64,000 nt of DNA from Candidatus Brevefilum sp. (lineage in GTDB: Bacteria; Chloroflexota; Anaerolineae; Anaerolineales; Anaerolineaceae): assembly GCA_029210815.1 (NCBI GenBank), contig JARGGB010000008.1:1-64000 (forward strand), given 5' to 3'. The notes beneath the pieces are model-generated. The model was not told the origin of the DNA and searched no databases. It saw nothing but the letters and a program-made list of their open reading frames with translations. Within the stretch, counting starts at the first letter, position 1. Each line of letters starts with the position of its first letter. Both the position numbers and the translations under genes were made by a program. Positions 36,720 to 39,424 of this stretch are shown piece after piece.

Positions 36720-38060
36720 TTATGCAGTTGTAAGATATCGGGAAATTTCCCAGTCGGTGACGTGGGTTCTGAAATTATCCCACTCTGCATAGCGAGATTT
36801 TAAGAAAGCAGCTGTCAGGCTTTCGCCCAGGGCATCTTGAAGGACCTTATCCCCTTCAAAAGCACTCAAGGCTTCGAATAAAGAGCCGGGTAACATTTCA
36901 ATCCCTAATTCAACACGTTCATTCTCTGAAAGATCATAGACATTCAACTGGTTTAATGGCTTGGGGCAGGGCAAACCTTCTTCAATGCCATCCAGACCGG
37001 CAGCCAGTATTGCATTGAACGCCAGGTAGGGGTTGGATGAAGGATCCGGGAAACGTAATTCCAGGCGAACGGTGTCCTGTTTTTCTTTCATTGGTTGGGG
37101 AATGCGGATCAACGCTGAACGGTTCACCTGCGCCCACCCGATATAAACCGGTGCCTCATAACCCGGCACCAATCGCTTGTAGGAATTTACTGTCGGTGCA
37201 ACCACGGCGCTAGTTGCCCTTGCATGGCGTAATTGACCGGCAATAAACTTGTAAGCCAATTCAGATAATTTGAATGGGTCATCCCCATCATAAAAGAGGT
37301 TATTACCCTCTAAATCGAATATGGAAAGGTGGCAGTGCATCCCAGAGCCGTTGATACCAAAGACAGGTTTTGGCATAAAAGAGGCGATCAAGCCATGCTG
37401 GGCAGCTATTGCTTTGACCGCATACTTGAGGGTCAGAACGTTGTCTGCTGTTTTCAGGGCATCGGCAAATCGGAAATCGATCTCGTGCTGTCCCAAAGCA
37501 ACTTCATGGTGTCCGACCTCAATTTCGAGTCCCATTTCATTGAGAGCGCTCATTAACTCAGTCCGCACCTGGACGGCTTCATCATTTGCGGAAAAATCAA
37601 AATAACCACCCACATCATGCGGTACCGGATGGATATTTTCTTTGCCATTTTGTAGAAAAAGGAAAAACTCCGGTTCCGGTCCGACATTCATGATCCATTT
37701 TTGTTCATCCTTCAGCAGGGCTAGCCGGCGTTTTAGGACGCCTCGGGGATCACCTTCGAAGGGCTGTCCATTGGGTCGGTATATGTCGCATAAAACTCGG
37801 GCGCGCTTCAACTCGTCCGGCGTCCAGGGCAGTATCGCGTAGGTGTCCGGATCGACAACCAGGTGCATGTCGCTTTCCTGGATTCTCGCGAATCCTTCCA
37901 CAGAAGAGCCGTCAAACCAAATCCCGTCTTCCAGCGCTTTCTCCAACTGGTTGACAGGCCCATCCACGCTCTTAACAACGCCGTTCACATCAGTGAATTG
38001 AAACGAGATGAATTTGATATGATCTTCTTTAATCCGCTTAAGTACATCCTTGCTGTTCAT
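36720..38060 (-). CDS. glnA: Glutamine synthetase, type I (alpha-like)
   Basis: A 446-residue enzyme that assimilates ammonia by making glutamine from glutamate and ATP. It carries FDGSSVEGFARIQESDM (about residues 52-68), VGPEPEFFLF, NGSGMHCHLS, VNSYKRLVPGYEAPVY and LRFPDPSSNPYLAF, all expected of GSI. Length and the C-terminal LNVYDLSENERVELGIEMLPG fit the GSI-alpha group of Bacillus and others, which lacks the adenylylation tyrosine loop, so control by covalent adenylylation is unlikely. The ATG at 38060 has GGAGG five bases upstream. The roughly 400-base leader appears structured and may provide the control. Confidence 0.95.
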   Translation of the reverse strand: MNSKDVLKRIKEDHIKFISFQFTDVNGVVKSVDGPVNQLEKALEDGIWFDGSSVEGFARIQESDMHLVVDPDTYAILPWTPDELKRARVLCDIYRPNGQPFEGDPRGVLKRRLALLKDEQKWIMNVGPEPEFFLFLQNGKENIHPVPHDVGGYFDFSANDEAVQVRTELMSALNEMGLEIEVGHHEVALGQHEIDFRFADALKTADNVLTLKYAVKAIAAQHGLIASFMPKPVFGINGSGMHCHLSIFDLEGNNLFYDGDDPFKLSELAYKFIAGQLRHARATSAVVAPTVNSYKRLVPGYEAPVYIGWAQVNRSALIRIPQPMKEKQDTVRLELRFPDPSSNPYLAFNAILAAGLDGIEEGLPCPKPLNQLNVYDLSENERVELGIEMLPGSLFEALSAFEGDKVLQDALGESLTAAFLKSRYAEWDNFRTHVTDWEISRYLTTA

Positions 38061-38228
38061 TTTTGCCTCCATATTAAATGATGAATTAGTAGTCTGTCAG
38101 GACATCAATAAATTGAAGGAATGAATTTGCATACCAGCATGGATGCATACAACCAGGTGTTTACCCCACTATGGTTGATTTGTCCTGCGTGTCACCACAC
38201 AGTTTTGAACGCCCATTTTATTGAAAGG

Positions 38229-38370
38229 AAAAATTGGACCCGTGTTCAGGCCCAGGAGGCTTCCGCTGATTGCTCGATTTTTCCCGGCAAACCGGGTTAG
38301 CACTCTCTTACCGGAGAGGAACCTCCACCTCGTCGTCTCAATGACTTCCAATTGAGATACAGCCGCTTAA
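38229..38370 (-). promoter_or_regulatory. Candidate structured leader RNA (riboswitch/attenuator-like) of glnA
   Basis: Read on the minus strand, this segment can form hairpin TCTCAA/TTGAGA (38357-38336), hairpin CTCTC/GAGAG (38318-38303) and hairpin CCCGG-TTTG-CCGGG (38296-38283). A long-range helix GGAGGTTCC/GGAAGCCTCC (38326-38318 with 38264-38255) encloses the last two. It is followed by TGGGCC/GGTCCA (38254-38235) with AUUUUU after it, which looks like a weak intrinsic terminator. It does not match the consensus of the glnA RNA, SAM-I or T-box classes as I know them. Function inferred only from structure and position. Confidence 0.5.
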
Positions 38371-38525
38371 TTTCCCATTATTCTGTTTTTCGATCCCCCG
38401 ACCTAATTGGTCATCATCACACAAGCCAGATGCAAATCATACTTACCTGACTGTGACTTTTTATACCATAGATTCAAATTTTGAACATGGGAATATTGTT
38501 AAACTTTGTTAATCTAAATTCACCC

Positions 38526-38553
38526 TTGACACAGAACAAAAATTCTATATAAT
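38526..38553 (+). promoter_or_regulatory. Consensus promoter of the P-loop ATPase cassette
   Basis: TTGACA (38526-38531), 16-base spacer, TATAAT (38548-38553). Transcription should start near 38560, inside the LexA-like box. Confidence 0.75.
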
Positions 38554-38555
38554 TA

Positions 38556-38567
38556 GAACATAAGTTC
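38556..38567 (+). promoter_or_regulatory. LexA-like SOS box (GAAC-N4-GTTC)
   Basis: GAACATAAGTTC followed by G matches the Gram-positive/actinobacterial LexA half-site pattern GAAC-N4-GTTC and begins two bases after the -10 box, an ideal repressor position. Further GAAC half-sites flank it (agaac at 38533 and 38574). LexA itself is not encoded in this window, so binding is inferred. Confidence 0.55.
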
Positions 38568-38590
38568 GAATATCAGAACAGGAGCATAAA

Positions 38591-39424
38591 ATGACTTCTT
38601 CAAATATTGTTATCAGCAGGCCTCGATCAAGCTATCAGGGTTTACCTGGCTTATACAACCGAATGCGGCGGGATGTTTTTATGCCTGCCAGGGCAAATCA
38701 AGTAGTTCGGAGTCTAACCGTTGGCAAATTATTATCTGCTGTAAAACCCGTACCCAAACATTCTCTTTTGCTGGGTCAATGTAAGGATAGTCTGCCATTT
38801 TTGATGCAGCTGGTTGATCCAGAAATTGGGGCGTTATTAATCAGCGGAGATACAGCGTGCGGGAAGACCCATCAACTGCAGGTATTGGTAGATTCTGCCA
38901 TGCGCTTGAACGCACCACATGATCTTCAGGTCTCGATCCTGACCCACAAGACAAATGAATGGCGATCGTTTTGGGATAGGGCACAACAGGAAAAATATTT
39001 ATACCAGATCAAAGCCTGGTATGAACCAGGCGCTGAAGCCTTGATCGAAGGGCTGGTAACTTTAGCAGAAGCCCGGCGTGAGGGGCACCGTGATGGCGCA
39101 TCGATTTTATTGGTCCTTGACGATTTCAATTTTGTTGAAGAACTCAGCTACTCAGCCCAGGTGAATTTGCACTGGCTGCTGGCTTATGGAGCACAATCGG
39201 GAATCTGGATTGCTGCAGCGATCAAATCCAATTATGCTGAGAGTTTTCGTTACTGGATTGATGGTTTTCGCACAAGAATTCTTGGTTCAACAAAATCAAA
39301 GACCAACCTGGACATACTTTCTATTGGGAAAAGTTCACATGCGGACAATTTAGAACCAGGCTATTTCCAGGTTTGGACCGGGTCAAATTGGCTTTCTTAT
39401 CGTTTACCTTTGTTAGGCGATTAA
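38591..39424 (+). CDS. P-loop ATPase, FtsK/HerA-like, possibly SOS-controlled
   Basis: A 277-residue cytoplasmic protein. Walker A is GDTACGKT (about residues 86-93), and Walker B is ILLVLDDFNF (about 172-181); between them lie RREGH and a tryptophan-rich segment. The overall length is that of a bare motor domain, and the C-terminal part (RTRILGSTKSKTNLD...YFQVWTG) recalls the end of FtsK/HerA-type motors, but no DNA-binding domain is attached. AGGAG lies six bases before the ATG. The gene leads a two-gene cassette behind a consensus promoter with a LexA-like box, suggesting a role in the DNA-damage response. Function otherwise unknown. Confidence 0.75.
   Translation: MTSSNIVISRPRSSYQGLPGLYNRMRRDVFMPARANQVVRSLTVGKLLSAVKPVPKHSLLLGQCKDSLPFLMQLVDPEIGALLISGDTACGKTHQLQVLVDSAMRLNAPHDLQVSILTHKTNEWRSFWDRAQQEKYLYQIKAWYEPGAEALIEGLVTLAEARREGHRDGASILLVLDDFNFVEELSYSAQVNLHWLLAYGAQSGIWIAAAIKSNYAESFRYWIDGFRTRILGSTKSKTNLDILSIGKSSHADNLEPGYFQVWTGSNWLSYRLPLLGD

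Follow-up and report, generated by a model that had tools for sequence, protein, structure and literature searches.

The glmS ribozyme is a self-cleaving RNA, the textbook metabolite-cofactor ribozyme tied to one gene. McCown et al. are said to have placed, in 2011, all known glmS ribozymes but two in glmS mRNAs, and the Deinococcus-Thermus variants with additional core stems that McCown reportedly covered in the same year were likewise described in glmS mRNAs. Glucosamine-6-phosphate (GlcN6P) is the cofactor, and RNase J1 degrades the cleaved mRNA (PMC7125110). Our search of the open-access literature returned no report of a glmS ribozyme linked to glnA in a regulatory sense, and none of a glmS ribozyme in Anaerolineae or Chloroflexota.

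We analysed the leader of glnA in a 64,000-nucleotide stretch of a Candidatus Brevefilum sp. genome (contig JARGGB010000008.1, hereafter the window). This leader is a glmS ribozyme. A cmscan search matched Rfam family RF00234 at positions 38161-38378 of the minus strand, with 46.6 bits against a cut-off of 37, and the match is complete (model positions 1-167 of 167). An earlier note on this DNA had held that the leader fits no riboswitch class and had named an Rfam scan beforehand as its refutation test; the match contradicts that view and rules out a class yet to be described. The interval that it had proposed, 38229-38370, does lie inside the element, but the element is larger and includes the P4 domain. 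The parts are listed below in window coordinates.

38161-38378, minus strand: glmS ribozyme RF00234, whole element (cmscan 46.6 bits, cut-off 37)
38366-38367, minus strand: predicted cleavage site A(-1)/G1, from the family alignment (G1 in 70 of 70 and A(-1) in 69 of 70 parsed glnA-linked copies)
38360-38365, minus strand: P2.2 5' strand, with C2 G3, a bulged purine (38363) and C5 U6 G7, pairing with 38268-38264 (numbering as in PMC7125110)
38264-38268, minus strand: P2.2 3' strand CAGCG, from the structure alignment of homologues
38336-38357, minus strand: P1 hairpin, from covariation (helix 3)
38328-38333, minus strand: ACGAGG, containing the P2.1 5' strand CGA (38332-38330) with the catalytic guanine (38331); invariant in 67 of 67, role from PMC7125110 and PMC11602151
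38275-38277, minus strand: P2.1 3' strand UCG, part of the GlcN6P pocket; nearly invariant, role from PMC7125110
38322-38326, minus strand: P2 5' strand GGAGG (helix 4, 100% paired)
38255-38259, minus strand: P2 3' strand CCUCC (helix 4)
38303-38318, minus strand: extra hairpin A inside P2, from covariation (helix 5)
38283-38296, minus strand: extra hairpin B inside P2, from covariation (helix 6)
38235-38254, minus strand: P3 hairpin (helices 7 and 8), whose loop forms the 3-pair P3.1 pseudoknot with 38169-38167
38371-38376, minus strand: P0 5' strand GGGAAA, upstream of the cleavage site, pairing with 38232-38227 (helix 1; partner-swap test)
38227-38232, minus strand: P0 3' strand, from covariation and the partner-swap test
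38171-38216, minus strand: P4 domain, with inner hairpin 38202-38185 (helices 9 and 10)
36720-38072, minus strand: glnA, type I glutamine synthetase (TIGR00653, 538.6 bits; PF00120/PF03951)
38060-38058, minus strand: probable ATG start of glnA, with GGAGG upstream, from reading the sequence

The defining parts of the family are all present: the A(-1)G1 dinucleotide (38367/38366) followed by C2 and G3; the double pseudoknot core of P2, P2.1 and P2.2 with a single bulged P2.2 nucleotide, here shifted to position 4; the catalytic guanine and the GlcN6P pocket bases; and the P3/P3.1 pseudoknot and P4 domain, seen as covariation of helices 7-10. The customary gene context is not: the next gene is glnA, not glmS. 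Location upstream of glmS is a habit of the family and not part of the definition of the RNA. The window copy has a modest score and a short P3.1 of only 3 pairs. Glutamine riboswitches (RF01739, the glnA RNA, and Downstream-peptide) share with this leader its position before glnA and a regulatory purpose, but neither sequence nor structure. A new riboswitch class responding directly to glutamine, 2-oxoglutarate or ammonium, as the earlier note had suggested, would suit that position, since known glutamine riboswitches also control glnA; we nevertheless regard it as extremely unlikely, because the glmS ribozyme model accounts for the whole element and a covariance-model scan of 38050-38620 gave no match to the glutamine-riboswitch families, RF01739 included, up to E=1. 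The likely signal is GlcN6P.

Other parts of the earlier description find their place within the ribozyme. The hairpins reported in the leader are P1, P3 and the two extra hairpins inside P2, and the long-range helix drawn around two hairpins is P2 itself (GGAGG at 38326-38322 with CCUCC at 38259-38255), which encloses 38318-38303 and 38296-38283. The stem that had been likened to a terminator, with its AUUUUU, is real as a stem, namely P3 (38254-38235), and a simple scan of the sequence also flags it; its role as an intrinsic terminator or attenuator was rejected, because relatives carry UUYUCCC in place of the U-run and the stretch belongs to another helix, as the 3' strand of P0.

The structure was accepted on comparative evidence from 67 homologues and not on folding energy, which is unremarkable for this leader (z of -0.87, with equal stability in 40 of 200 shuffles); thermodynamic folding alone is uninformative here and was dropped as evidence. 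The covariation set represents the glnA lineage and consists of 65 glnA-linked copies, one glutamate-synthase-linked copy and one orphan. Across it, 89.6% of the cells of the named structure are paired, compared with 74.8% after shuffling, and the covariation score is 0.461, compared with 0.202 after shuffling (0 of 500) and 0.08-0.15 in slid controls. Every peripheral helix shows two-sided pair changes. The P2 and P2.2 pairs are formed in 98-100% of the sequences, and P2.2 supplies no covariation evidence of its own because it is nearly invariant. G1, C2, G3, G7, ACGAGG (67 of 67) and CGG are invariant in this lineage, and the pocket strand UCG is kept in more than 90%; among the 70 parsed glnA-linked copies, G1, C2 and G3 occur in all and A(-1) in 69. 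The alignment of glnA leaders that the earlier note had asked for bears out its claim of a structured regulatory RNA before glnA, which proves to be conserved and to have covarying helices.

Compared with the RF00234 model, the glnA copy shares the A/GCG site, P1, the P2/P2.1/P2.2 double pseudoknot, P3/P3.1, P4 and the catalytic and pocket bases, and has additions of its own: the two extra hairpins within P2 and helix P0, which bridges the cleavage site. These additions are common to glmS-linked copies of Anaerolineae, so that glnA-linked and glmS-linked ribozymes of the same genomes (for example L002) have the same architecture; the extra hairpins resemble the stems reportedly inserted in the core of the Deinococcus-Thermus variants. 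P0 forms between the nucleotides that immediately precede the cut and the strand that follows P3. Within the glnA lineage, 6 of its 7 pairs show two-sided changes, and the outer pairs are often unformed. A partner-swap test was supportive for the glnA-linked copies (13.5 versus 12.2±0.3) and for glmS-linked copies of the order (16.7 versus 13.0±0.25) and the class (18.2 versus 13.3±0.7); it gave P0 no support in the phylum-wide copies. P0 would keep the 5' fragment tethered across the cut. Just 5' of P0, most glnA-linked leaders carry a conserved ACAAYUGAAUA-like segment.

The active-site helix is where the glnA copies depart from their glmS-linked relatives. In the model ribozyme, P2.2 comprises C2-G56, G3-C55, C4-G54, C5-G53, a bulged A6 and G7-C52, and G26 forms a base triple with G7-C52 (PMC7125110). 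The glnA lineage reads A/GCG-R-CUG against CAGCGG, that is, C2-G56, G3-C55, a bulged purine at position 4, C5-G54, U6-A53 and G7-C52; the bulge has moved from position 6 to position 4. Position 4 is C in none of the 70 glnA-linked copies, compared with 156 of 157 glmS-linked copies, and G26 is G in 40 of 70, compared with 157 of 157. Six of the 70 have U4, a small group mainly from family f5, and one ribozyme, L184, has U-A at position 4 where its relatives have U-G. In the model ribozyme, C4G or C4A alone is damaging, and adding A6C to C4A restores activity in part (about 24-fold), which was taken to mean that nucleotide 4 then forms the bulge (PMC7125110); a shifted-bulge geometry can therefore work. 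By this comparison, the glnA lineage appears to offset its change at position 4 by the bulge shift, and its P2.2 is the natural counterpart of laboratory double mutants. The shift and the relaxed G26 probably tune the cleavage rate or the GlcN6P response to the needs of glnA.

The same changes could be read as a switch of cofactor, in which the remodelled P2.2 and G26 serve another amine or a nitrogen-status metabolite instead of GlcN6P. Such a switch, a naturally evolved cofactor change in a catalytic RNA if true, would fit both lineage-specific changes in the active-site helix and a new gene context that includes glutamate-synthase-like genes. We judge it decidedly unlikely: the bases of the pocket and of catalysis are conserved and do not differ from those of glmS-linked copies in the same genomes, and what has changed is in effect the place of the bulge, an alteration of the kind that partly restores GlcN6P activity in the model ribozyme (PMC7125110).

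To establish the gene context, relatives were searched at the family, order, class and phylum levels, flanking DNA was taken and the first downstream gene was assigned by tblastn. The genome of the window contains two glmS ribozymes, one before glnA and one before the real glmS. Across the order, 134 ribozymes precede glmS, 73 precede glnA, 7 precede glutamate-synthase-like genes and 3 are unassigned. In the 73 glnA-linked copies, glnA is the first downstream gene and lies on the same strand; they come from six families of the order, the sixth being f7 (G006/L283). Their occurrence in 73 genomes rules out a chance second copy or mis-binning. In samples that consist mostly of best-scoring matches and are not unbiased, 45 copies of the class outside the order precede glmS and 1 precedes a clear glutamate-synthase-like gene (L240), the rest being other or too short, and all 30 of the 30 best-scoring phylum-wide copies precede glmS.

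A second sample was drawn by glnA itself. In thirty other genomes of the family together with that of the window, the leader could be read for 24 close GlnA genes; the ribozyme is present in 21 of these leaders (20 recognised by motif and L341 by eye) and absent from 3 (L329, L339 and L342). Distant glutamine synthetase paralogues have none in 5 cases, with 520 bases read upstream of each match; the genome of the window has a second, distant paralogue at C17:3339-4436, without a ribozyme match.

This retention bears on whether the glnA copy is a decaying or non-cleaving duplicate, a relic or a merely structural 5' UTR. Its score below that of many glmS-linked copies, its non-canonical P2.2 and, in one relative, an orphan copy that no gene follows (L150) would agree with decay. 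Against it stand the covariation within the glnA lineage itself, an active site that is invariant in 67-70 sequences and the 21 of 24 leaders in which the ribozyme is kept, and we hold this explanation to be very unlikely. L150 is the third copy in its genome (G330), a glnA-type ribozyme without a same-strand gene behind it, and its neighbours, in tail-to-tail orientation, are branched-chain amino-acid-type ABC transporter genes, as judged by reading their proteins.

Further ribozymes lie before other genes. Eight are directly upstream of glutamate-synthase-like (PF01645) genes: L162, L175, L187, L240, L272, L278, L280 and L282. At class level, L242 precedes a DegT/DnrJ-type aminotransferase and an oxidoreductase, possibly genes of amino-sugar synthesis. 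L238 precedes a large FAD/Fe-S oxidase-like gene, assigned from protein reading only; its partial tblastn match to glutamate synthase was set aside and the copy was left out of the count.

A tree of 258 ribozymes placed all 73 glnA-linked copies in one clade (SH-aLRT 98), which also takes in 3 glutamate-synthase-linked copies and the orphan, while 175 glmS-linked ribozymes lie outside it. Labels change 7 times in total on this tree, compared with 66-80 times when shuffled. The remaining five glutamate-synthase-linked copies group in a separate clade (90), apart from the glnA clade, and these two groups suggest repeated recruitment of glmS ribozymes to GS-GOGAT nitrogen assimilation. With short alignments and a quick tree search, detail inside the clades is uncertain, and the tree is silent on the direction of duplication. 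One ribozyme copy was probably duplicated to glnA in an ancestor of several Anaerolineales families and then retained; the source was most likely the copy of the glmS gene, because glmS-linked copies are more widely distributed.

In sequence, the structures closest to the enzyme are archaeal and Bacillus-type ones of 442-448 amino acids, consistent with the GSI-alpha assignment made in the earlier note. The nearest named relatives are Anaerolineaceae MAGs, including Brevefilum sp. KA23 (GlnA 82% identical). RNase J is encoded in the genome of the window. Neither a PII protein nor a genuine glutamate synthase was found in this genome, which is 95.9% complete, so that gaps are possible; one apparent glutamate synthase match was rejected, because the frame, next to a prenyl synthase, reads to us as IPP-isomerase-like. 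The genome thus shows few other nitrogen controls, and control at the RNA level could be a main nitrogen regulator here. On the plus strand, a perfect TTGACA-16-TATAAT promoter (38526-38553) precedes a divergent gene (38591-39424), whose 277-amino-acid product has no Pfam match.

We consider it highly probable that a duplicated glmS ribozyme, tuned in this lineage, has been kept at glnA to lower its mRNA by GlcN6P-cofactored self-cleavage and decay. Plentiful GlcN6P would bind the preformed pocket and act as cofactor, and the RNA would cleave itself at A(-1)/G1 (38367/38366). The downstream glnA mRNA, left with a 5'-OH end, would then be degraded, probably by RNase J, and glutamine synthesis would drop along with GlmS, which consumes glutamine to make GlcN6P. 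Under GlcN6P shortage, the glnA and glmS mRNAs would both stay intact. GlcN6P, made by GlmS from glutamine, would in this way shut off both its own synthesis and the supply of glutamine.

This is a known RNA family in a gene context that is new as far as could be checked, and it forms a new structural sub-lineage. With a distinct, conserved lineage of the ribozyme before glnA and others before glutamate-synthase-like genes, GlcN6P would serve to signal nitrogen status, and the ribozyme would form the centre of a small regulon. These findings suggest that many Anaerolineales use the supply of a cell-wall sugar as a signal for nitrogen assimilation.
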